From Deltaproteobacteria bacterium (GTDB taxonomy: Bacteria; Desulfobacterota; Syntrophobacteria; BM002): a stretch of 64,000 bases of DNA. The stretch covers positions 1 to 64,000 of the forward strand of contig JAJDNB010000244.1 of assembly GCA_022340905.1 (NCBI GenBank), given 5' to 3'. This document shows positions 14,975-47,403 of the stretch, in pieces. Both the position numbers and the translations under genes were made by a program. The notes under the pieces are model-generated. The model was not told where the DNA came from and ran no database searches. It saw only the letters and a list, made by a program, of their open reading frames with translations. Numbering within the stretch: position 1 is the stretch's first letter; each line of letters opens with the position of its first letter.

Positions 14975-15027
14975 AGAATCCAAATCGACAGGGGCTGGCT
15001 TTGAGCTAATCCTACTGAGCGCTTTGG

Positions 15028-15118
15028 GTTTCAGGTGTCAGGTGTCAGGTTTCAGGAACAATGAACAGAAACGGCAAACCAGAACTCTGAATAGTTATAC
15101 CTGACACCTGAAACCTGT
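15028..15118. repeat. degenerate dispersed repeat, family A, copy 1
   Basis: GGTTTCAGGTGTCAGGTGTC then GTTTCAGGAACAATGAACAG is followed by the near-complement ACCTGACACCTGAAACCTG, so the unit can fold into a long imperfect hairpin. Related copies lie at 25586-25645, 41454-41525 and 47330-47403, all intergenic. Confidence 0.8.
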
Positions 15119-31964: not shown

Positions 31965-32453
31965 CTACAGTTGTTTCACGTAGATGATCTTATCATCTCC
32001 CGGAGAGTAAAAATCCTTCAAGAAAGCTACCTGTTCAAAGCCGTTAGCCCGGTAGAATGACCGTGTTGGTTCATATTGATCACGGGAAGAGGTGTCCACG
32101 TAGACTCGTTTCCCGCCGCTTTTCACTATTTTCTCCTCGGTTCTTTCCAACAATTCCCGGCCAATTCCTCTGCCTCTAAAGGCATGCAGGACGGCAATCC
32201 AGTAGAGGTCGTAACTTTCTTTGGTGCACGGGATGGGTCCATAGCAACTGTAGGCAACAGCTTGTTGGTTGATTTCAGCGAAGAGAAAATGATACCCGCT
32301 CGACTCTCCCTTAGAAAGGTTTTCTTCTACCAACTCCACGGCCATTTCAACTTCTTCGGTAGAAAAAAAGCCCGAAGAACTGATAATATTCCGGATACTG
32401 CCAACATCGGAGTCGATTGGCTTCTCTCGATAATAGATTCCCTTGAAGTTCAC
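31965..32453 (-). CDS. GNAT-family N-acetyltransferase
   Basis: 162 aa. Central acetyl-CoA-binding motif A reads AVLHAFRGRGIGRELLERTEE (R/QxxGxG/A form), followed by VYVDTSSRDQYEPTRSFYRANGFEQVA, the usual GNAT C-terminal half. The start is a GTG at 32453, five bases after the stop of the GNAT-HDAC gene, so it closes the kamA operon. In beta-lysine osmolyte synthesis (kamA/ablA with ablB) a GNAT enzyme acetylates beta-lysine; this protein is a candidate for that step, not a proven one. Confidence 0.85.
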   Translation of the reverse strand: MNFKGIYYREKPIDSDVGSIRNIISSSGFFSTEEVEMAVELVEENLSKGESSGYHFLFAEINQQAVAYSCYGPIPCTKESYDLYWIAVLHAFRGRGIGRELLERTEEKIVKSGGKRVYVDTSSRDQYEPTRSFYRANGFEQVAFLKDFYSPGDDKIIYVKQL

Positions 32454-32458
32454 GAGTG

Positions 32459-34234
32459 CTAACTTTTCTGGTGCAAGCCTACGGATGAAACCCTACCAAG
32501 ATGGAAACCTGACCACAAGCCTTTGAAAAAATTGCGGGAATTGATCCCCAGGGAGCGAACTCTGTAGCCTCCCTCTTGAACCACAATCGTGGGCAACCTC
32601 AGGGAGCCTACCATTTCTCCGTTCAGTCTGAAATCTCTGGCCCGGAAACTCCAAGAACCGGTGGGATCCTCTTTGGCGGGATCATAACCCAGGGGAAGAA
32701 CGAGAAATTGAGGTTGGAACGTCTCTATTCGCCTGAGGACCTTCTTAAGGGCTTCCCTGTATGCTTCCCCGGTCACCTCCTCAGGCAAAGGGATATTTAG
32801 ATTAAATCCAAATCCGGCGGACTCCCCTTTTTCATCTTCAAAGCCGCTGAAATAAGGGTAGGCAAAGCGTGGATGCCCGTGGATCGAAATGGTAAACACA
32901 TCTGCACGCTTGTAGAAAATGTTCTGAGCCCCATTTCCATGGTGGTAATCCAGATCCAGCACTGCCACTTTTCCGTAGGCGCTCAAGAACTGAGCTGCAA
33001 TCGCGGCAGAATTGAAGTAGCAGAATCCCCCAAAGGCGCGGTGCTCTGCGTGGTGTCCTGGTGGGCGCACCAGGGCATAGGCCAGGCGATATCCTTCAAG
33101 AATCTTTTTGGCCGCGGTCAAGGCGCAGTCGACTGACCTTTTGGCCGCGATATAAGCATTCTCGTTCAGTGGAGTGAAGGTGTCGATGCAGTAGTAACCC
33201 GCCCTGATGGGTAAGATCTTGGGGGGCCGAGCAACATTTCGGATGGGAAATACATAAGGGTATATGGATGTTTCCGGTTCAAGATGGCTGCACACTCGTT
33301 TCAGGTACTCGACAAACTGGCGGTCATGAACGGCCTTGATGTATTTGTCAGAGAAGTGTTGAACTTTTATCTCGTCAAACATTCCAGTAGGCAGAAGTTC
33401 CCGGAGAATAGCTCGTATGCGCACGGGCGATTCCACGTACCCACGGTTATGCACATGGTGAATGGTGTGCTTGTCATTCACAACCAGGGCGATGCTCTTT
33501 TCAAAGGACCTGACGGGCCTTACCTCAATGGGGGATTCCTCTTTAACGTACCTGGGACCTCTGAGTCGGACCGGGTCGTCTTTGAAAGACTCTACCACCA
33601 TTTGGATATATTCTGGAGGGCACAAGTCGCCGTATTTCCTTCTGAGTATCGCCCGGGCAATGCGTTTCATTTTGCTGCGCTGCAGCGGTTTGTCTCTGCC
33701 GAGATTATCGTAAACCAGGTAGGGTGGGCAGTCATCGCCCTCGCCGACTGGTGTTTCGTAGTCCGTGTTCGCTATGGGCCGCGCTCCGTATCTTTCATAG
33801 AAGCGGAGCCTGGCAACATTTTGTTTCATCATCTCCGGGTCGCGGCACAGTGTTGGGTCATCAGGCAAACACTCGAAGAAAAGGCCGATCGTCTTCATTC
33901 CAGCGGCTTCCTCCCGTACCCTTTCATAGAGGGCGCTGCCGATTCCGCCACCCGTCTGCAACCTGCCGGCTGCCATGAAGTCCAAATAGCAGAATTGTAA
34001 ATCTGGGGCGTGTTGCAGCAGAGCAAATCCTCTGACTCGATTCCGTGCTCCCTCAGCAACGAGAAGAATGGACCTGAACCGGTATTTAAGTGGGTTCCGC
34101 AGTTGCTCTGGAAGTTCGGCGATTTTTTCCTGCCACAGCAAGGGAAACTGCTCCAGCAAGATTTGCTGAACCTGGGCAATGGCATCCTTCTCTACCGGTA
34201 AGGTGTCATCGTAGATACGACGAATGCGAAACAT
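32459..34234 (-). CDS. GNAT-HDAC fusion: N-acetyltransferase fused to acetylpolyamine-amidohydrolase-like deacetylase
   Basis: 591 aa. Residues about 1-190 resemble a GNAT domain (SILLVAEGARNRVRGFALLQ, AAGRLQTGGGIGSALYERVREEA, then LRFYERYGARPI). Residues about 255-580 are a class II histone deacetylase-like hydrolase: RPPGHHAEHRAFGGFCYFN with the catalytic His pair, VLDLDYHHGNGAQ with zinc ligands Asp and His, LPLGYDPAKEDPTG and VQEGGY. The family acts on acetylated polyamines or lysine-like amines. Acyl addition and removal therefore sit in one chain. Preceded by GGGGGAAA and the ATG at 34234. Part of the kamA operon. Confidence 0.9.
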   Translation of the reverse strand: MFRIRRIYDDTLPVEKDAIAQVQQILLEQFPLLWQEKIAELPEQLRNPLKYRFRSILLVAEGARNRVRGFALLQHAPDLQFCYLDFMAAGRLQTGGGIGSALYERVREEAAGMKTIGLFFECLPDDPTLCRDPEMMKQNVARLRFYERYGARPIANTDYETPVGEGDDCPPYLVYDNLGRDKPLQRSKMKRIARAILRRKYGDLCPPEYIQMVVESFKDDPVRLRGPRYVKEESPIEVRPVRSFEKSIALVVNDKHTIHHVHNRGYVESPVRIRAILRELLPTGMFDEIKVQHFSDKYIKAVHDRQFVEYLKRVCSHLEPETSIYPYVFPIRNVARPPKILPIRAGYYCIDTFTPLNENAYIAAKRSVDCALTAAKKILEGYRLAYALVRPPGHHAEHRAFGGFCYFNSAAIAAQFLSAYGKVAVLDLDYHHGNGAQNIFYKRADVFTISIHGHPRFAYPYFSGFEDEKGESAGFGFNLNIPLPEEVTGEAYREALKKVLRRIETFQPQFLVLPLGYDPAKEDPTGSWSFRARDFRLNGEMVGSLRLPTIVVQEGGYRVRSLGINSRNFFKGLWSGFHLGRVSSVGLHQKS

Positions 34235-34365
34235 TTTCCCCCTTCGCCCGAAAATGTGTTTGTAAGAATCTCAGGCGGCGTGTTGCACAATAGCTTCAAG
34301 GTCATTGATGTCGAGCTAGGTTCAAGCCCCTGGTCTTGCCCGGTGAGAGGCCGCAGACTTTGCCA

Positions 34366-35376
34366 TCATAGGGTGCTGCTCTCTTCCCTTTGCAGGGCAA
34401 AATCAACGATCATGCCTATCATCTCGTTGTAGTCCAGTCCCGCCTCTTGCGCTGAGGCGGCAAAGCCGGCATCAGGGCTCAGGCACGGATTGGCGTTCAC
34501 TTCGAGAACATATATCCTGCCGCGGTCATCAACCCTCAGATCGACCCTGCCGTAATCTCTCACCATAAAGAGACGGAAACAGTCGAGAGCCACCCTCTTC
34601 ATTTTGTTTGACAACAACCGAGCTAGATCTTGTGGAAACCTTCTGGGGCTGTGATGGTATTCGAAAGAAGCCTTATCCCATTTGGCCCGATAACCCACAA
34701 TTGGATAAAGATTCTCAGGAAAATCGGAAAAATCGATCTCACTTATGGGGAGTACATTCGGTGCTGGATAACCCAAAAGTGTTATGTTGAATTCCCTGCC
34801 CGGGATGTATTCTTCTATCAGTAGCGAGCCAAATCTGTCCAAAAACGATGTTAGTCCTTCTCTAAGTTCTTGATCATCCTGGAAGACCGAGTCCTGGTCG
34901 ATACCGATACTTGCATCCTCAAACCTTGGTTTGACGATCACTGGAAACGTGAGCAGGGTGGTACTGAATTCCTGCGAGCCGTTGCAGACGATATAATCGG
35001 GCGTCCTGATTTGCCTGCCTCTCAGCAGCCGTTTGCTAACGAGCTTGTCCGTAGTGAGCATCAGAGATGCGGAAGGAGAACCAGTGAAGGATACGCCCAG
35101 GAGCTCGAAGACGGCTGCTGCATGCCAGAGGAGGTGGGGAACTTCATCAACACTTTCGCAGAGATTGAAGACCATATCCACCATTTGTTCTTTGAATCTC
35201 TCAGCGAATCCGTGGAGATCACGGGCAAAGGGAATCCTCACCGCCGAGTACCCCAAAGTCTCGAGCGCCTGCTCAATAGCTTCTACCTGGGCAAGCACGT
35301 CAACCGATGCTTGCCAGTTTTCGTGCCCTTCGGAAGCTGGTTGGTTGTGAACGATACCGATCCTTTTTTTCCTCAA
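34366..35376 (-). CDS. ATP-grasp ligase 1 (D-alanine--D-alanine ligase-like)
   Basis: 336 aa. ATP-grasp signatures of the Ddl family: FPVIVKPRFEDASIGI, LLIEEYIPGREFNI, YGRVDLRVDDRGRIYVLEVNANPCLSPDAGF with the Mg-binding Glu/Asn residues. It should join a carboxylate to an amine using ATP. A real Ddl would usually lie near murC or ftsQ and carry different specificity loops, so this one is likely an amide/peptide-forming paralog. Starts at TTG 35376 with GAGGAG 8 bases upstream; its first 77 bases overlap the 3' end of ligase 2. Confidence 0.88.
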   Translation of the reverse strand: MRKKRIGIVHNQPASEGHENWQASVDVLAQVEAIEQALETLGYSAVRIPFARDLHGFAERFKEQMVDMVFNLCESVDEVPHLLWHAAAVFELLGVSFTGSPSASLMLTTDKLVSKRLLRGRQIRTPDYIVCNGSQEFSTTLLTFPVIVKPRFEDASIGIDQDSVFQDDQELREGLTSFLDRFGSLLIEEYIPGREFNITLLGYPAPNVLPISEIDFSDFPENLYPIVGYRAKWDKASFEYHHSPRRFPQDLARLLSNKMKRVALDCFRLFMVRDYGRVDLRVDDRGRIYVLEVNANPCLSPDAGFAASAQEAGLDYNEMIGMIVDFALQREESSTL

Positions 35377-36364
35377 AGCTTCTTCTCCTCAATCCCTGGC
35401 GGGACGAAGCCGAAAAAACTATCGCCTGGATCAAGTCATGATACGATACGCCCACCTCGGATGCAATGATGCACAGGTCCGAATGGCTGGGATGCAGCCC
35501 GGCCAGGGGATTGACCTCCATGAACATGAGTGTACCGTCCTTATCTTGCCGCAGATCGAGGCGGCCCGCATCCCGGCAGCCGAGGCCTCTCCAGGCAAGG
35601 AGGGCCACGTTGCTTGCCTCCTCTAGCAAAGCTCCATCGACCGGACGATACTCCACCAGTTCCTCACACCTCTCCTTGTTCCGGTAGGAGTAGACTTCAG
35701 TTTCAGCATTCTCTCGTAAGACAACTTCTATGGCGCCAATGACCGTTGCATCTTTCCCCGTTCCCAGGATGCCCGCAGTAATTTCCCGTCCAGGCAGGAA
35801 GCTCTCAACCAGTACAGGCTGCTGGTACCTTGACAGAAGGAGAGTGCACACGGATAGCAGTTGTCTACGATTGGTAATTTTTGAAAAGGAATCGACTCCC
35901 TTGCCGGTGCCTTCCGCTACAGGCTTGGCGAAAAGTGGAAAAGGAAGATCAATGAGCGCCAGGTCGGATTCCTTTTCTACCAGGAAGAAATCAGGTGTGG
36001 GAACACCCAGATCTCGGACCACGCGCTTGGCCATCCCCTTGTGCAGAGTGAGGGACAGTACCAGGGGATCGGAAAACGTATACGGTATTTCGAAGGCTTC
36101 AAGCAGAGCAGGGACTTGCGCCTCACGGCCAAAACCCTTGAGACCTTCGGCAATATTGAATACCAGATCCCACCTATCTCCGGCAGCAAGTCGTCGCGTG
36201 AGACTCTTGATGTTTCCTATTCGATCTGTTCGGTGCCCTAAATCCTGTAAAGCCTGGTCAATGGCAGAAATCGTTTCTTCCGAGTCAAACTCGGCGGTTT
36301 CTTCCTCACCAAGGCCCGCTGCCAGGTAATCTTTTCGGAGGTCATAGGTAATGCCTATCTTCAT
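35300..36364 (-). CDS. ATP-grasp ligase 2 (D-alanine--D-alanine ligase-like)
   Basis: 354 aa, divergent paralog of ligase 1. Features: FNIAEGLKGFGREAQVPALLE, FPLFAKPVAEGTGKGVDSF, VLVESFLPGREITAGILG, and the metal site CRDAGRLDLRQDKDGTLMFMEVNPLAGLHPSHSD. The ATG at 36364 overlaps the kamA stop (TGATG) and has GGAG 9 bases upstream, which points to coupled translation. A basic C-terminal tail (RRRSFEEKKDRYRSQ...) extends across the start of ligase 1 and may be dispensable. Substrate unknown; beta-lysine from KamA is the obvious candidate amine. Confidence 0.88.
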   Translation of the reverse strand: MKIGITYDLRKDYLAAGLGEEETAEFDSEETISAIDQALQDLGHRTDRIGNIKSLTRRLAAGDRWDLVFNIAEGLKGFGREAQVPALLEAFEIPYTFSDPLVLSLTLHKGMAKRVVRDLGVPTPDFFLVEKESDLALIDLPFPLFAKPVAEGTGKGVDSFSKITNRRQLLSVCTLLLSRYQQPVLVESFLPGREITAGILGTGKDATVIGAIEVVLRENAETEVYSYRNKERCEELVEYRPVDGALLEEASNVALLAWRGLGCRDAGRLDLRQDKDGTLMFMEVNPLAGLHPSHSDLCIIASEVGVSYHDLIQAIVFSASSRQGLRRRSFEEKKDRYRSQPTSFRRARKLASIG

Positions 36365-37695
36365 CAGCAATTTCTCCCTTCCCCAGCTTCTGGTCTCACC
36401 GCAAATTGGCTCCGGGGTGGAGAGGGATCAGGATAGCGAAATATCCGGCCCTCATAATTTTTCAACACAAGGTAGTCTCCCTCGCGGCCGACTACGTATT
36501 CGGGAAGCAAAGGAATCTTGCCCCCGCCTCCCGGGGCGTCGATGGCATACGTGGGCACCGCATAACCACTGGTGTGACCTCGTAAACCCTGAATGATCTC
36601 GAGACCCTTCTCAACAGGCGTACGGAAATGAGCCGATCCCACAATAGGATCACACTGATAGAGATAGTAAGGTTTTACCCGCATTTTCAGAAGCCCGTGC
36701 ATCAAACCTTTCATGGTCTCAACATCGTCGTTGATGCCGGCCAGCAAAACAGTTTGACTGCCCAGCGGAATGCCTGCCTCCGCCAATCGTTCGCAACCCT
36801 GGCTCGACTCAAGAGTAAGTTCATCTGGGTGGGTGCAGTGAATACTCATCCAGAGTGGATGGTAGCGCTTTAGCATCCTGGTAAGAGCCGAGGTAATCCG
36901 CTGCGGCAAAACCACAGGGACTTTGCTGCCAATGCGCAACAGTTCCACATGAGGAATCCTTCTGAGCTGGGACAGGAGCCATTCCAGTTTTTCGTCCGAC
37001 AGGGTCAGGGGGTCGCCACCTGATAGCAGTACATCCCTGACCACCGGCGTAGCCTTGATGTAGTCAATGCCCCGTTGCCACTGCTCCTTCTTAAAAGCTT
37101 TATTGTGGCCAACCATGCGAGAACGGGTGCAATAACGGCAGTTAGTGGAACAGAAGTCGGTGACCAAAAAAAGAACCCTGTCGGGATAGCGATGGACGAT
37201 CCCCGGCACAGGGCTATCATGATCTTCTCCCAGCGGATCTTCCGCCTCGCCCGGGGAGCGCAGGTGCTCCCCACTTACCGGCACCACAGTGCGACGCAGG
37301 GGCTGTAACGGCTTGTCTCCGTCTATGAGGCTTGCATAGTAAGGAGTTATGGCCAGGGGAAGTAAATTGCCATTACCGCCAAGAGCATTGCGCTCATCCT
37401 CGCTGAGCTGGATCACGCGCTCGAGTTGCGAAAGATTGCTGATTCGGTTAGTCAGCTGCCAGCGCCAATGGTTCCACTCAGCGCTGGTCGCTTCAGAAAA
37501 GTATCTTCTGCGGAAGGTTGACGAACGTAAACTTTCGGGAAATCTAGAAATACCGTAGTTCTTCTTTTCAAACCTTGATTTATTGGACGCAACAAATCTT
37601 TGCTCCTTGGAGGGATCCTCCTCCACCTGCCCAGCCGGTCTGGGCAGACAACCTAACGGTTCAACTTCTTCGGAACAAGGAATTGTCGTTTTCAT
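36364..37695 (-). CDS. kamA: lysine 2,3-aminomutase KamA
   Basis: 443-aa radical-SAM/PLP enzyme that converts L-lysine to beta-lysine. The iron-sulfur motif is FCSTNCRYC (Cys near residues 182, 186, 189). PLP lysine is in DAPGGGGKIP. The two aspartates that bind the lysine side-chain amine in clostridial enzyme (in YQCDPIVG and in AIDAPGG) are both conserved, which favours lysine over glutamate as substrate. GGHTSGYAVP-type context (RGHTSGYAVPTYAIDA) is intact. The ATG at 37695 has AGGAGG 9 bases upstream; the longer frame from 37722 is rejected. First gene of the operon under the sigma-54 promoter at 37808. Confidence 0.95.
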   Translation of the reverse strand: MKTTIPCSEEVEPLGCLPRPAGQVEEDPSKEQRFVASNKSRFEKKNYGISRFPESLRSSTFRRRYFSEATSAEWNHWRWQLTNRISNLSQLERVIQLSEDERNALGGNGNLLPLAITPYYASLIDGDKPLQPLRRTVVPVSGEHLRSPGEAEDPLGEDHDSPVPGIVHRYPDRVLFLVTDFCSTNCRYCTRSRMVGHNKAFKKEQWQRGIDYIKATPVVRDVLLSGGDPLTLSDEKLEWLLSQLRRIPHVELLRIGSKVPVVLPQRITSALTRMLKRYHPLWMSIHCTHPDELTLESSQGCERLAEAGIPLGSQTVLLAGINDDVETMKGLMHGLLKMRVKPYYLYQCDPIVGSAHFRTPVEKGLEIIQGLRGHTSGYAVPTYAIDAPGGGGKIPLLPEYVVGREGDYLVLKNYEGRIFRYPDPSPPRSQFAVRPEAGEGRNC

Positions 37696-37807
37696 CTTCC
37701 CTCGCCTCCTTTTATTAGGCATGGTTACAACGAAAAGTAATAACGCCAGATTTTAGAGATTAAAGCATCTCTCAACCCCCAAACGTGCATGAGGTCGACT
37801 CCAACAT

Positions 37808-39050: not shown

Positions 39051-39149
39051 TAGGGTGCCTGTTTTTCCCTTGTTGAAAGATGGATTGCCGAATCTGGGGA
39101 AAGCATCTAAGATCAAAGTGGAAAGACTAAGATTCAAATGGGAGTTGCC

Positions 39150-40340
39150 ATGTCGGATACAAACCAATCATCAGGTAAAAGCTCTTCGGGTGTTGCCACC
39201 AGCGAAGAGACCACACCAAAGGAGCATAGTACCTCGAGCCCTGTTCAGCCGCAGCAGGAACCAAACGGAAGTGACTTGCTCCTTTTGGATGGGGCAAGCT
39301 CGCAAATGCCAATTGTTGCTCCTGAACTGGAGACACAGAGGCGAGTGGCCGCTGACATATCTCGTCCGCTGCCTGAGCGTTTGGAAGCCTATGAAGACAT
39401 CATGGATTCTGAGGTGGGCGATACCACCTTGGTGCGAGCCCGGAATGTTGAACGTGAGATGGGCTTGCGCCAAATTTACCTGAAATTTGAGGGGGGCAAT
39501 CCCACGGGAACCCAGAAAGACCGCATTGCCTTCGCCCAAGTAATGGATGCTATGCGTCGGGGTTTTGAGGCCATCACCGTGGCCACCTGCGGTAATTACG
39601 GAGTAGCCCTTGCCCTTGCCGCTTCAATGGCCGGTTTAAGATGTCTCATTTACATCCCCGAGGGATACCACACAAAGAGGGTCCAAGAGATGACCGATCT
39701 CGGGGCCCAGATAGTTCGCGCAGCAGGAGACTATGAGCAGGCGGTGGTAATCTCTCGTAAGCACGCAGAAGCGGAGGAGATCTATGACGCAAACCCAGGA
39801 GGAGCCAACACTGCACTGCAACTGAAAGCTTATGGTGAGATAGCCTACGAGATTTACGATGAGCTTCGAGATGCCCCCGCCGCCGTAGCTGTGCCTGTTT
39901 CCAACGGCAGCACTTTGGTCGGCATTTACAAAGGCTTCTTGAGCCTCTATCGCAGAGGCAAGACCTCGCGTATACCCCGAATGGTGGCGGGTTCTTCACA
40001 CGGCAAGAATCCGATTATCAGGGCCTACCTCAAGAATACTCTCGCCTGCGAGGACCTGAAGCCAGAACAAATTCGCGAAACTGCCGTTAACGAGCCTTTG
40101 ATCAACTGGCATTCTTTTGATGGTGATCAAGCCCTGGAAGCAATCAGAAAGAGTGGCGGTTGGTCATCGTATGCCAGTGACAAGAGTATGCTTACCCATT
40201 CGCGACTCCTGAGGGAGAAGGAGGGTTTGAGCATACTGCCGGCATCCACAGCGGGCTTGAGCGTACTCTTGGAACGCCATGGCAAGGATCAACTACCCGG
40301 AGATCGCTATGTGGTGATTCTCACAGGGAGAAAATCGTGA
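39150..40340 (+). CDS. threonine-synthase-like PLP-dependent enzyme (fold type II)
   Basis: 396 aa. A disordered Ser/Thr/Gln N-terminus of about 50 residues precedes a tryptophan-synthase-beta fold: TTLVRARNVEREMGL, then YLKFEGGNPTGTQKDR with the PLP lysine, TCGNYGVALALAASMAG, VPVSNGSTLVGIYKG and AGSSHGKNP. True threonine synthase is usually neighbour to thrB or hom; here the partners are DgcN- and DgcA-type genes, so it may catalyse beta-elimination or replacement on another amino acid. GGGAG lies 5 bases before the ATG at 39150; the ATG at 39138 is part of that site. Ends in a GTGA overlap with the next gene. Confidence 0.85.
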   Translation: MSDTNQSSGKSSSGVATSEETTPKEHSTSSPVQPQQEPNGSDLLLLDGASSQMPIVAPELETQRRVAADISRPLPERLEAYEDIMDSEVGDTTLVRARNVEREMGLRQIYLKFEGGNPTGTQKDRIAFAQVMDAMRRGFEAITVATCGNYGVALALAASMAGLRCLIYIPEGYHTKRVQEMTDLGAQIVRAAGDYEQAVVISRKHAEAEEIYDANPGGANTALQLKAYGEIAYEIYDELRDAPAAVAVPVSNGSTLVGIYKGFLSLYRRGKTSRIPRMVAGSSHGKNPIIRAYLKNTLACEDLKPEQIRETAVNEPLINWHSFDGDQALEAIRKSGGWSSYASDKSMLTHSRLLREKEGLSILPASTAGLSVLLERHGKDQLPGDRYVVILTGRKS

Positions 40341-41419
40341 ATTCTTTTCCTGAAGGTAATGCAATTGTTTACTGCCAGGGTGCCTTTGCAACTCCCAACG
40401 GCAAAACCGCCCACGGTCTGGTGCGCCGCACTCGACGCTACCGAGTTCTCTCGGTGGTGGACTCACGCCATGCCACCAATGATGCTGGCATGGTTTTGGA
40501 TGGCAGAGCCAGGGACATCCCTATCTACAAAGAACTGGGTTTGGCAGTGGATGAGGCCCTATCACGAGGAAATGCCCCTACCCACCTGGTCATTGGCTTG
40601 GCCCCAGATGGCGGCCGCCTCAGCGGTGAAGCTCGCAGCGATGTAATCAGGGCCATTGAGCTCGGCCTCAATGTAGACTGTGGCCTTCACGATTTTCTTT
40701 CTGAAGACACTGAGATTGCCCAGTTGGCCGCCCAAAACAGTGTAACTTTGCGTGACATTCGCAAACCGCCACACCGGAAAGACCTTCACTTTTTCAGTGG
40801 AAAGATCGAAGAGGTGACCTCGCTAAAAGTGGCAGTTCTGGGCACGGATTCGGCCATCGGCAAGCGCACTACTGCTTGGATCCTCCTTGATGGTCTCCGT
40901 GAGGCCGGTTATGGGGCAGAACTCATTGGCACCGGGCAAACCGCTTGGATGCAGGGGGCTAGTTACTCCATTATTCTCGACTCCCTGATCAATGATTTCG
41001 TCGCCGGTGAGATTGAACATGCAGTGTGGTCCGCCTGGAAAGAGAGTCAGCCTCAGGTGATTGTCATCGAGGGCCAGGGGAGTTTGATGAACCCTGCCTA
41101 CCCTGGTGGATTCGAGATCCTGGCTGCCGGCAGGCCTGATCTGGTGGTACTCCAGCATGCTCCCGCGAGGGAAGAGTATGACGGGTTCCCCGGCTACCCC
41201 GTTCACCCCCTCGAAACACAGATACAGGCCATCGAACTACTCTCGGAAAAACCAGTGATAGCAATATCTGTCAACCACGAGAACCTGGACAAAGGTCAAG
41301 TCGCTGACGTGTGCCGAGAAATCAGCAAAAAGATCCGTCTTCCCGCCTGTGACCCTCTTTTGAACGGGGCGGGACCGTTAGTCGCCGCACTGAAACCTTA
41401 TCTTGAGAAGAAGAAATGA
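40337..41419 (+). CDS. DUF1611 (DgcN-type) protein
   Basis: 360 aa. N-terminal Rossmann-like half followed by a P-loop-like GTDSAIGKRTTAW and VIEGQGSLMNPAYPGGFEIL, characteristic of DUF1611. DgcN of this family was described as acetylating D-glutamate, working with the epimerase DgcA; the matching epimerase lies two genes downstream here. The GTG start overlaps the stop of the previous gene by four bases, so the two are translationally coupled. Actual substrate in this context is inferred only. Confidence 0.85.
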   Translation: MNSFPEGNAIVYCQGAFATPNGKTAHGLVRRTRRYRVLSVVDSRHATNDAGMVLDGRARDIPIYKELGLAVDEALSRGNAPTHLVIGLAPDGGRLSGEARSDVIRAIELGLNVDCGLHDFLSEDTEIAQLAAQNSVTLRDIRKPPHRKDLHFFSGKIEEVTSLKVAVLGTDSAIGKRTTAWILLDGLREAGYGAELIGTGQTAWMQGASYSIILDSLINDFVAGEIEHAVWSAWKESQPQVIVIEGQGSLMNPAYPGGFEILAAGRPDLVVLQHAPAREEYDGFPGYPVHPLETQIQAIELLSEKPVIAISVNHENLDKGQVADVCREISKKIRLPACDPLLNGAGPLVAALKPYLEKKK

Positions 41420-41453
41420 CTCCCTGCCAGCCTGAGGAAACTTTTAGGGGTAT

Positions 41454-41525
41454 AGGTGTCGGGTGTCAGGTTTCGGGTGTCAGGAAGAAGAAAAATAAAA
41501 GCTGAAACCTGAACACTGAAACCTT
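41454..41525. repeat. degenerate dispersed repeat, family A, copy 3
   Basis: GGTGTCGGGTGTCAGGTTTC, GGGTGTCAGGAAGAAG and the complement-like CTGAAACCTGAACACTGAAA. It interrupts the operon between the DUF1611 and PP-loop/creatininase genes without a visible terminator. Confidence 0.75.
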
Positions 41526-41559: not shown

Positions 41560-43923
41560 ATGACTAAAAGTAATCCAAAAAAAGATCCTTTAAAGGCTCT
41601 CGGGGTCATTGGTCGACTGGAAGTGGGCCCGGTGCTTCTAAAACCGCGGGGCATGGCAGCTCCCTACCGGGTGACCAAAAACGGTGAAGTTCACGAAAAC
41701 GAACTGATTTACCGGTTCGAAGAAAATGTGTTTGTGCCCGATGAACCTGCCTCCCTCAACCTTGCGAGCATGATGGCTGCACAGGTTGCCCTGAATTACG
41801 GACTCTTTTGCGATGAGCTCGTCTTTCACGGCTGCTTCGACAAACATGACCGGGGGTTCATCGAAGAGATGGCGCAAAATACCGCCCGGGAGATATTTGT
41901 AAAAAAGTTTCTCCAGCCAAATCCCTTTCTACACAGTACTACAACTGATCTTCCCCCGGTCAAACTGGAAAGCTATCTCAGGGCCAAGGTAGTCTTCCCA
42001 GATCAAGAGCAGAGCAAAGATAGAAAAGACACGAAGTGGAAGGAGGGGTGGAAAGGGCAACGGAATCGACACGCTGTTCTTTCCAGCGGCGGCAAAGACA
42101 GTCTTCTCAGCTTCGGCCTTTTGCGGGAGTGCGGCCATGAGGTCCATCCCATTTTTGTCAACGAATCAGGCAGGCATTGGTTCACCGCTCTCAATGCTTA
42201 CCGGTATTTCGCTGCCAATATCAAAAACACCGCGCGGGTTTGGACCAATTCAGACAGGTTGTTCAGCTGGATGCTCAAACATTTACCCTTTGTGCGCCAG
42301 GATTTTTCCAGAATACGCTCCGACCAGTACCCGATTCGACTGTGGACCGTGGCAGTTTTTCTCTTCGGGGCTCTACCCATATTGAGAAAGAGAGGTGTTG
42401 GACGACTGCTCATTGGTGATGAATTCGACACCACCTGCAGATTGTCCCATGGAGGCATACCTCATTATGATGGACTCTACGACCAAAGCCGTTTCTTCGA
42501 CCACGCCCTGACCCGCTACTTCAATCGCAAAGGATGGGCAATCAGTCAGTTTTCCCTTCTCAGGCCCCTTTCAGAGCTGTTGATCCAGAAAATCCTGGTA
42601 GAACGGTATCCCGATCTGCAACGTCTTCAGGTCTCCTGCCACGCCACCCACAAGGAGGGAGAGCGCGTTCATCCCTGTGGCCGCTGTGAAAAATGCAGGC
42701 GTATCGTCTCTATGCTGATGGCTCTAGGGGTAGATCCTTCCCACTGCGGGTATAAACGGAAGCAGGTTGCAACTTGCTTAGAAAGACTTTCTGCCGAAGG
42801 GATTCATCAGGAGAGTCATGGCCTCCAGCATTTGGGCTTCGTGTTGAGGGAAAAGGGTCTCCTGACTGAATCGTCGATAGGTGGGGTTAAACCGCGCCAG
42901 CGTCCTGAAATAATGAAATTACGCTTCGACTCAGAAAAATCGCCTCTAGACGACATCCCCGTAGACTTGCGCGAATCGCTCTACTGGCTCTATTTGGAGC
43001 ATGGTGACGGAGCAGTCAAAAAAAAGGGAAGAGTGTGGATCGACTTTGATCCTCTAGACGATCCAGCTATAAGCAGGCCCTATCCCTTTGAATCTCACGG
43101 TGCGCGAGCACGATCATTGCCCCCTGCGCCGGCCGACTCCGCGAAATCGTATCTGTTGCAAGAGTTGACCTGGCCTGAGGCGGAGAAACGTCTTGAAGAG
43201 GTGGACGTAGCCCTGCTGCCGGTTGGCTCGATCGAACAGCATGGCCCACACTTACCGTTGGACAGTGATGCCTTTGATGCCGAGCACCTTGCCCACAAGG
43301 TGGCGGAATCTTGTTCAGACCCCAAACCTTTGGTTCTCCCCTTGATCCCGTATGGGGTATCCTACCACCACGAAGGTTTTTCAGGCACTATCAGCATCAG
43401 CCCTGACACCCTCTCCCAACTGGTGTACGAAATAGGTATGGGTGCAGCTCGCCAGGGCATAACCAAGCTGCTGATCATCAACGGGCACGGGGGCAACAGC
43501 CCAGCCTTGAATTTCGCCGCCCAGATGATCAATCGGGATGCTCACATTTTCACCTGTGTGGATACGGGTGAAACCAGCGATCCAGACGTCGATGCCCTGG
43601 CTGAGACTCCCAACGACGTCCATGCAGGAGAGATCGAAACCAGCACCACCTTGGCGGTTCGCCCCGATAAGGTAAGGATGGAAAAGGCCCATACTTTTGT
43701 GCCCCAGTTCTCGAGTCAATATTTGAATTTCACCTCCAAGAGAAGGGTCAACTGGTACGCCCACACCGCCAGAATTTCACCTGAAGGTGTCCTCGGCGAT
43801 CCCACCAAAGCAAGTCGTGAAAAAGGCCAACAAATATGGCATCTGATGATCAGAAATCTGGTGGAACTCGTCGAAGATCTCAAAGGTTTAAGTCTCGATG
43901 AAATTTACCAGAGGCGGTATTAA
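41560..43923 (+). CDS. PP-loop ATPase fused to creatininase-family amidohydrolase
   Basis: 787 aa. Residues about 165-420 hold an N-type ATP pyrophosphatase: HAVLSSGGKDSLLSFGLLRE, then LIGDEFDTTCRL and a zinc site RVHPCGRCEKCRR. Residues about 535-780 are a creatininase-type hydrolase: LPVGSIEQHGPHLPLDSDAFD, NGHGGNSPALNFAAQ and HAGEIETST, all metal ligands present. The first 165 residues are unassigned. An ATP-dependent activation module and a metal amidase in one chain is unusual; possibly the protein makes and trims an amide. The ATG at 41560 with GGGA 6 bases upstream is preferred to the TTG at 41524. Confidence 0.88.
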   Translation: MTKSNPKKDPLKALGVIGRLEVGPVLLKPRGMAAPYRVTKNGEVHENELIYRFEENVFVPDEPASLNLASMMAAQVALNYGLFCDELVFHGCFDKHDRGFIEEMAQNTAREIFVKKFLQPNPFLHSTTTDLPPVKLESYLRAKVVFPDQEQSKDRKDTKWKEGWKGQRNRHAVLSSGGKDSLLSFGLLRECGHEVHPIFVNESGRHWFTALNAYRYFAANIKNTARVWTNSDRLFSWMLKHLPFVRQDFSRIRSDQYPIRLWTVAVFLFGALPILRKRGVGRLLIGDEFDTTCRLSHGGIPHYDGLYDQSRFFDHALTRYFNRKGWAISQFSLLRPLSELLIQKILVERYPDLQRLQVSCHATHKEGERVHPCGRCEKCRRIVSMLMALGVDPSHCGYKRKQVATCLERLSAEGIHQESHGLQHLGFVLREKGLLTESSIGGVKPRQRPEIMKLRFDSEKSPLDDIPVDLRESLYWLYLEHGDGAVKKKGRVWIDFDPLDDPAISRPYPFESHGARARSLPPAPADSAKSYLLQELTWPEAEKRLEEVDVALLPVGSIEQHGPHLPLDSDAFDAEHLAHKVAESCSDPKPLVLPLIPYGVSYHHEGFSGTISISPDTLSQLVYEIGMGAARQGITKLLIINGHGGNSPALNFAAQMINRDAHIFTCVDTGETSDPDVDALAETPNDVHAGEIETSTTLAVRPDKVRMEKAHTFVPQFSSQYLNFTSKRRVNWYAHTARISPEGVLGDPTKASREKGQQIWHLMIRNLVELVEDLKGLSLDEIYQRRY

Positions 43924-44120: not shown

Positions 44121-45185
44121 ATGAAAATTACTCAAGTAGAAGGGTGGCCGGTTACCATGAAACTGGCCGAGCCTTACCTCATTGCTTACGAAAAGGTTGA
44201 GGTAGCTACCAACATATTTCTCCGGATTGAGAGCAGTAGCGGCATAATAGGCTACGGCTGCGCTGCGCCGGATGAGTACCTCACCGGCGAGACACCTGAA
44301 AGCGTACTTACAGCCATAGATGATATCGTTACGCCTTCCATCAAAGGATCCGACCCCCTGCGTCCAATTATGCTTCTCGAAAGGATCAAACCCTTGCTGC
44401 AATCACAACCCTCGGTCCTTGCCGGAGTAGACATGGCTCTTTTTGACATCCTGGGAAAGGTGTGCAACCTTCCTCTGTGGCGGCTTCTCGGGGGATTCAG
44501 GGACCGCATTCGAACCAGCATCACCATAGGCATACTTCCGGAAAAGGAAACGGTCGAACGGGCCCGAAAACATGTTGCCCAAGGATTCAGGTGCCTCAAG
44601 CTCAAAGGAGGAATCAACCTTGAATCAGACATCTCCAGGGTTTTACGAGTGAGGGAGGCGGTTGGCCGGGACATCGAATTGCGTTTCGACGCCAATCAAG
44701 GATTTTCGGTGGAAGATTCACTCACCTTTGTAGAAAAAACGCGCAAGGCTCGGTTGGAGTTGTTTGAGCAACCCACCCCTAAAGGACAGCCGGAAATGTT
44801 GCGCCAGGTGAGTAACACCGTGGCCATACCGGTCATGGCCGACGAAAGTCTCACTTCCCTGAGGGATGCATTCCGCATCGCCCGCCGTGGTCTGGCTGAT
44901 ATGGTAAACGTCAAGCTCATGAAAGTCGGCGGCATTTCTGAGGCTTTGCAGATCAATTCCGTGGCTAGAGCGGCAGGTCTCGAAGTCATGGTTGGCTGCA
45001 TGGATGAAGCCGCCTTGGGAATATCTGCCGGGCTCCACTTTGCCCTCGCCCGTCCCAATGTTGTCTACGCCGATCTGGACGGCCATATGGGGCTGCTGGG
45101 AGATCCCTCCGATGGCATGATAATGCTCCAAAATGGCAGCCTTTTCCCCAATAACAGTCCCGGTCTTGGTTTCACTATGGGCTAA
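44121..45185 (+). CDS. dipeptide epimerase (enolase superfamily, DgcA-type)
   Basis: 354 aa. Enolase-superfamily fold with acid/base KxK (LKLKGG near residue 160), metal ligands in LRFDANQG, LFEQPTP and VMADES, the second lysine in NVKLMKVGG, and the Asp-x-Asp specificity motif (YADLDGHMGLL) typical of dipeptide/N-acyl-amino-acid epimerases. Probable reaction: inversion of an L/D-amino acid residue in a dipeptide or N-acetyl amino acid. Preceded by the PP-loop/creatininase gene after a 197-base spacer with no features. Likely works with the DUF1611 protein. Confidence 0.9.
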   Translation: MKITQVEGWPVTMKLAEPYLIAYEKVEVATNIFLRIESSSGIIGYGCAAPDEYLTGETPESVLTAIDDIVTPSIKGSDPLRPIMLLERIKPLLQSQPSVLAGVDMALFDILGKVCNLPLWRLLGGFRDRIRTSITIGILPEKETVERARKHVAQGFRCLKLKGGINLESDISRVLRVREAVGRDIELRFDANQGFSVEDSLTFVEKTRKARLELFEQPTPKGQPEMLRQVSNTVAIPVMADESLTSLRDAFRIARRGLADMVNVKLMKVGGISEALQINSVARAAGLEVMVGCMDEAALGISAGLHFALARPNVVYADLDGHMGLLGDPSDGMIMLQNGSLFPNNSPGLGFTMG

Positions 45186-47329: not shown

Positions 47330-47403
47330 TCAGGTGTCAGGTTTCGGGTGTCAGGTGTCAGGGAAAAGATAAATAGTGGCTGAATCGTGAACACTGACAC
47401 CTA
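47330..47403. repeat. degenerate dispersed repeat, family A, copy 4
   Basis: CTCAGGTGTCAGGTTTCGGG, TGTCAGGTGTCAGGG and GTGAACACTGACACCTATG. Intergenic, upstream of the acyl-CoA synthetase/GNAT gene. Confidence 0.75.

Follow-up and report, generated by a model that had tools for sequence, protein, structure and literature searches.

A MurL-like PP-loop domain fused to a creatininase-family amidohydrolase in a conserved four-gene operon

MurL catalyses the ATP- and Mg-dependent L-to-D epimerization of the C-terminal glutamate of a cell-wall peptide, with formation of AMP. One ATP is spent, with AMP formed, for each inversion, and the reaction runs from L to D only (PMC8788868); reviews have called the mechanism of the enzyme unclear and known conserved domains absent from it (PMC8788868, PMC5808125). 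In QatC an N-terminal extension precedes the QueC core, and zinc is bound through Cys334, Cys354, Cys357 and Cys360, a motif of the same kind as the one described below (PMC13279940), and MftE cuts a peptide bond after modification of the C-terminal part (PMC10885120). Here we describe a gene that appears to unite relatives of these enzymes in a single chain, found in a window of 64 000 nucleotides from a Deltaproteobacteria bacterium (contig JAJDNB010000244.1, positions 1 to 64 000). A first-pass annotation of the window had made no link between the fusion gene and its neighbours; we find that it is the third gene of a conserved four-gene operon.

The fusion gene and its two domains

The gene and its parts are as follows.

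41560..43923, forward strand: fusion gene (operon gene 3), 787 residues, MurL-like PP-loop protein plus creatininase-family amidohydrolase
41560..41994, forward strand: predicted N-terminal alpha/beta domain of the MurL-like unit, residues 1-145 (AlphaFold2 block; weak alignment with the MurL N-terminus from residue 19; parallel in QatC)
42058..42759, forward strand: predicted PP-loop (QueC-like) core, residues 167-400 (Foldseek; hhalign with MurL)
42082-42102, forward strand: PP-loop SSGGKDS, residues 175-181 (sequence motif)
42637..42696, forward strand: predicted zinc site SCH...PCGRCEKC, with Cys360, Cys373, Cys376 and Cys379 (motif, conservation)
43159..43872, forward strand: predicted MftE-like creatininase-family amidohydrolase, residues 534-771 (PF02633, TIGR03964, Foldseek match to 1q3k)

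The frame opens with an ATG at 41560 and contains no internal stop up to 43923, giving 787 codons on translation; an alternative in-frame start, TTG at 41524, would add 12 residues. Full-length fused orthologues with 86%, 65% and 61% identity are present in three genomes of the same phylum, one of which is a single contig, and scanning species genomes yielded 110 relatives, 80 of which were taken for analysis. The set of 83 loci used below includes three from the genomes of these orthologues, one of them (L021/L027) being entered twice. The two domains lie in one frame in 71 of the 83 loci and in consecutive separate genes in five (L053, L074, L084, L093 and L097); one locus is cut by a contig end, and in six no creatininase follows the MurL-like gene. 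Among these six, L088, L096 and L105 have kilobases of downstream sequence, L094 and L101 end shortly after the gene, and the sequence of L070 is masked. The first-pass annotation had reported the single frame and had raised a frameshift that joined two genes, with homologues that are always separate, as a possibility to be checked. An artefact of this kind is excluded, because the frame is open in the window and intact in its relatives, and the 71 fused loci come from independent genomes; two named strains whose genomes are closed, Desulfosarcina alkanivorans PL12 and D. widdelii PP31, also have the intact fused form. On the sequence evidence, chance is likewise no explanation of the frame and its similarities, because there are full-length orthologues in three genomes of the phylum and relatives at 80 further loci.

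As the domains are separate adjacent genes in five loci, their pairing looks functional. A quick tree of the N-terminal part was poorly resolved, with many unsupported forks; split and stand-alone forms were dispersed among the fused ones and made up no single clade, which suggests repeated splitting or joining of the two domains. Carriers were found in more than 10 phyla, including Thermodesulfobacteriota, Acidobacteriota, Planctomycetota, Gemmatimonadota, Bacteroidota, Latescibacterota and Zixibacteria; many are metagenome assemblies for which a single phylum label may be wrong, and the overall spread is independent of any one label. No relative was found in the viral contigs searched, and a search for plasmid-borne relatives gave no match.

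Profile comparison identifies the first domain as a distant homologue of MurL. In NCBIfam, 36 of 37 N-terminal parts matched the MurL model NF041275 and no other model (best E 3.7e-8). The N-terminal part of the fusion scores 27.9 bits and does not reach the equivalog cut-off of 700 of this Xanthomonadales model; that cut-off is narrow, because genuine MurL sequences (L121-L127) also fall below it, at 245-468 bits. The model matches weakly in unrelated genomes too, and these seven genuine sequences were therefore gathered for a profile comparison, in which hhalign aligned the N-terminal part with them over 352 columns (residues 19-426) with 98.7% probability (E 2.8e-16), at an identity of about 22%. 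Both groups contain the PP-loop (GGGKDS/SGGKDS), FSxLRPLSEL and SC[HN]A...CxxCxKC motifs. The AlphaFold2 models have a pLDDT of 86.8 for the full-length protein and of 90.7, with a pTM of 0.90, for the N-terminal part, and the predicted fold of the first domain is of the QueC/Cap9/QatC type, its PP-loop core matching QatC (5.3e-5), QueC (1.9e-4) and Cap9 (3.0e-4) in Foldseek.

Conservation of residues was read from an alignment of 51 full-length homologues. The SSGGKDS motif, which the model places between a strand (residues 167-175) and a helix (residues 179-190), as in PP-loop ATP pyrophosphatases, is invariant or nearly so, and each of the four cysteines is invariant in all 51. The PP-loop and the CxxC-type zinc site picked out in the first-pass annotation are thus borne out, zinc binding being a prediction. 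The roughly 165 N-terminal residues that it could not match belong, in the main, to the N-terminal domain of the MurL-like unit: the hhalign alignment begins at residue 19, if more weakly there than in the core, and residues 11-120 are predicted as a confident alpha/beta block with pLDDT mostly 90-98.

The second domain, which is the only Pfam match in the fusion protein, covers the whole of the Creatininase profile PF02633 (residues 534-771, profile positions 1-238 of 238, E 1.7e-73, 247.4 bits against a cut-off of 31.3), and Foldseek matches it to 1q3k (2.9e-15). Its closest equivalog is MftE (TIGR03964), at 161 bits just under the cut-off of 172, and the creatininase equivalog TIGR04448 gives 109.6 bits against 235; its predicted activity is that of an MftE-like creatininase-family amidohydrolase. 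The metal centre had been described as complete, and this holds for four of the five creatininase ligands, Glu34, His36, Asp45 and His120, which correspond to Glu559, His561, Asp570 and His643 of the fusion, each invariant in 51 of 51. It does not hold for Glu122, which is replaced by Gly645 (Gly in 46 and Asp in five of the 51), so that GHYEN of creatininase reads GHGGN. His688 and Glu693 are also invariant. No mft genes were recognized by inspection among the recurrent flanking families.

MurL as a PP-loop protein, and the cell wall

The genuine MurL sequences (for example, L127:1333-4095) contain a PP-loop, GGGKDS, and a four-cysteine (Cys4) motif, SCN...WCGxCPKC, and MurL itself looks from these motifs to be a QueC-family enzyme. 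We found no earlier statement of a PP-loop or Cys4 site in MurL in the literature, subscription papers lying mostly outside the search. Placing MurL in the PP-loop/QueC family would give a concrete mechanism to an enzyme called mechanistically unclear and domain-less (PMC8788868, PMC5808125), and predicts that its PP-loop lysine and Cys4 site are important.

Other proteins of related appearance were seen in the course of this comparison. A second MurL-like group in Pseudomonadota (L128-L135), with FCGGGKDS or similar and SCN...PWCxxCxKC, scores 104-128 bits to MurL, and no MurD was found in its loci. A 453-residue stand-alone MurL-like protein (L111:1213-2574, reverse strand; SFGKDS, SCH...WCxxCxRC) occurs in a genome of the same phylum as the window, and a 377-residue PP-loop-like protein without a family match (L112:607-1740, forward strand; YSGGIDS) is preceded by an ATP-grasp-like gene and followed by an unidentified 418-residue gene.

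Six of the seven MurL loci adjoin or are fused to MurD, L127 being a MurL-MurD fusion, whereas no murD or MurD2 was found near the fusion in the 83 loci. MurI is equally common in the carriers (20 of 32) and in the genomes of the phylum (121 of 198), and because of these two results the fusion is not a cell-wall MurL. The idea that the operon supplies D-glutamate for peptidoglycan in place of MurI, as MurL/MurD2 do in Xanthomonas, draws on the MurL homology and on three whole genomes, 94-98% complete (G000, G135 and G184), in which MurI was not found; we consider it very improbable in view of the missing murD and the lack of any association with MurI, and replacement of MurI was rejected on both counts. 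A role in phage defence, like that of QatC, was also rejected: PADLOC gave no match to the fusion, which has neither the profile hit nor the neighbours of a qat system, and its conserved neighbours are metabolic (PALP, DUF1611 and epimerase).

The four-gene operon

The order of the genes is pyridoxal phosphate (PLP) enzyme, DUF1611 protein, fusion and dipeptide epimerase; the partners of the fusion are listed here.

39138..40340, forward strand: operon gene 1, predicted fold-type II PLP enzyme (PALP; PRK06381 'threonine synthase'), start at 39138 or 39153; PF00291 E 8.9e-55, NF004996 438 bits against a cut-off of 266
40337..41419, forward strand: operon gene 2, DUF1611/DgcN-like P-loop protein, sharing 4 bases with gene 1; PF07755 1.4e-64, PF17396 2.8e-21, DgcN NF041892 158 bits against a cut-off of 480
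44121..45185, forward strand: operon gene 4, predicted enolase-superfamily dipeptide epimerase; MR_MLE_C 6.5e-50, closest structures 3jva, 1jpm and 3rit

Conservation was counted only over loci with enough flanking sequence (68 for upstream genes, 58 for downstream). Upstream of the fusion, 65 of 68 loci have PALP and 62 of 68 have DUF1611; downstream, the epimerase is present in 50 of 58, and the creatininase is fused in 50 and adjacent in four, or 54 of 58. Of the genomes in which DUF1611 is not next to the fusion, those of L048, L094 and L069 encode an orthologue (63-69% identity) at another site, that of L033 encodes only a paralogue (37%) and that of L036 has none. The operon is spread over more than 10 phyla, and no description of it was found in the literature searched. 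Distance correlations among the four genes were moderate (0.30 to 0.65); kinship was not controlled for in these values, and they are not counted as evidence.

Gene 1 does not encode the housekeeping threonine synthase: a separate ThrC scores above its cut-off in all eight genomes checked. Its N-terminal tail (39138-39400, and likewise in the PALP genes of other loci) is variable, probably unstructured, and ends in a semi-conserved LLDGA(S/T). In dipeptide epimerases, a KxK motif and a further lysine form the catalytic pair, a D-E-D set binds the metal and a DxD motif is characteristic. Gene 4 keeps LKLKGG, VKLMK, FDANQ/FEQP/MADES and ADLD in comparison with 3jva and 1jpm, the latter an L-Ala-D/L-Glu epimerase, and so has the motifs of a dipeptide epimerase. 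Its position 24 is an almost invariant glutamate, compared with an arginine in the Bacillus subtilis enzyme that we take to contact the substrate glutamate; because of this difference the substrate of gene 4 is probably not L-Ala-L-Glu, which we offer as a lead. In L066 the epimerase frame has a large N-terminal extension, which was judged to be spurious, an open stretch of high-GC DNA.

Genes 2 and 4 also match the DgcN and DgcA models, and together with an amidohydrolase suited to release as a dipeptidase they would fit an operon for catabolism or recycling of cell-wall or D-amino-acid dipeptides. We think this unlikely, as the scores are far below the equivalog cut-offs (DgcN 158 of 480, DgcA 147 of 400) and the ATP-consuming MurL homologue and the PLP enzyme are left unaccounted for.

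Elsewhere in the window, a cluster on the reverse strand (31965-37722) encodes a lysine 2,3-aminomutase, two Ddl-like ATP-grasp proteins and, in one gene, a GNAT plus histone-deacetylase-like protein; in L033, too, the operon has the aminomutase and ATP-grasp genes as neighbours. Judged by one ATP-grasp gene as marker (35300-36370), there is no genome-wide link between this KamA-ATP-grasp cluster and the operon (the marker is present in 11 of the 39 genomes with the operon and in 51 of the 198 genomes of the phylum), and a functional link was rejected. A dispersed repeat built of GGTGTCAGGTTTC-type heptamers, whose inverted arms are imperfect, occurs between genes at 15025-15117, 41453-41524 and 47333-47362; it is far above chance expectation, and the copy at 41453-41524 lies directly before the fusion gene.

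Proposed function and comparison with known systems

Our best explanation, held with moderate confidence, is that the fusion is a two-domain enzyme of a metabolic operon, in which MurL-like activation of a carboxylate is followed by amide cleavage in the same metabolite. The N-terminal 500 residues would act as a MurL-type, AMP-forming PP-loop enzyme, binding ATP at SGGKDS and adenylating a small substrate, similar to an amino acid or dipeptide, at its carboxylate. The activated substrate would then either lose and regain its alpha proton, epimerizing as in MurL, or meet a nucleophile, and the MftE-like amidohydrolase would hydrolyse an amide bond of the same metabolite. The PLP enzyme may make or modify the amino acid, the DgcN-like DUF1611 protein would join it as a partner and the dipeptide epimerase would invert, giving a route, separate from peptidoglycan synthesis, by which amide linking, inversion and release would yield a D-amino acid, a non-protein amino acid or a dipeptide. 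The operon probably belongs to a hitherto undescribed pathway for an amino acid or dipeptide of this unusual kind. The analysis shows the homology, the predicted fold, the invariance of catalytic residues, the fusion and the conservation of the operon, whereas adenylation, epimerization, a common substrate and the sequence of the steps are inferred. The scheme of the first-pass annotation, adenylation followed by amide hydrolysis, is a sensible proposal; it had the real fusion and the functional-looking pairing right, and missed the MurL identity, the nature of the N-terminus, the MftE-like type and the operon as the unit.

What is least certain is the reaction of the first domain, which may be inversion, as in MurL, or ligation, as in QueC and Cap9. 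A MurL-type, ATP-driven epimerase acting with the amidohydrolase and the operon partners, so that inversion is unidirectional and paid for with ATP before the resulting D-amino acid, non-protein amino acid or dipeptide is released, is a version that we put forward tentatively, and it is favoured by sequence descent, MurL being the closest relative. An amide ligase of the QueC/Cap9 type, making a dipeptide that the epimerase inverts and from which the creatininase domain releases the D-residue, seems to us somewhat unlikely. It is favoured by the best fold matches (QueC, Cap9 and QatC), by the joining of a carboxylate to an amine by Cap9 (PMC13279940) and by the dedicated epimerase of the operon, which means that the PP-loop domain need not be one; the closest sequence, however, is that of an epimerase, and a ligase fused to a hydrolase that undoes its work would be futile unless the steps were separated in time.

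Several observations weigh against adenylation and inversion by a MurL-like domain paired with amide cleavage. The similarity to MurL is remote (27.9 bits against 700), so that the reaction may differ; QueC and Cap9, of the same fold, form amides; a second epimerase would be redundant in this operon, which favours a ligase; and the MurL-like gene has no creatininase nearby in L088, L096 and L105, and neither DUF1611 nor the epimerase beside it in L033 and L036. If the proposal is true, MurL chemistry extends beyond cell-wall synthesis, a MurL-type domain having been recruited to a widespread operon whose four genes have five predicted activities between them.

Compared with known systems, the fusion resembles MurL in its homology over residues 19-426 and the motifs common to both, and differs from it in having no murD partner, in its additional C-terminal amidohydrolase and in carrier genomes that often have MurI. 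It has the predicted fold and Cys4 site of QatC, Cap9 and QueC, and QatC, too, is extended at both termini, but the sequence similarity of the fusion to these proteins is weak and its neighbours are metabolic rather than those of qat or CBASS systems. With MftE and creatininase it shares a full-length PF02633 domain, although it lacks recognized mft neighbours, has Gly in place of Glu122 of creatininase and is joined to a MurL-like domain. The operon, finally, resembles the DgcN/DgcA D-glutamate pathway in bringing together DUF1611 and enolase-superfamily epimerase genes, and departs from it in its low equivalog scores and in the addition of a PLP enzyme and a MurL-amidase fusion.
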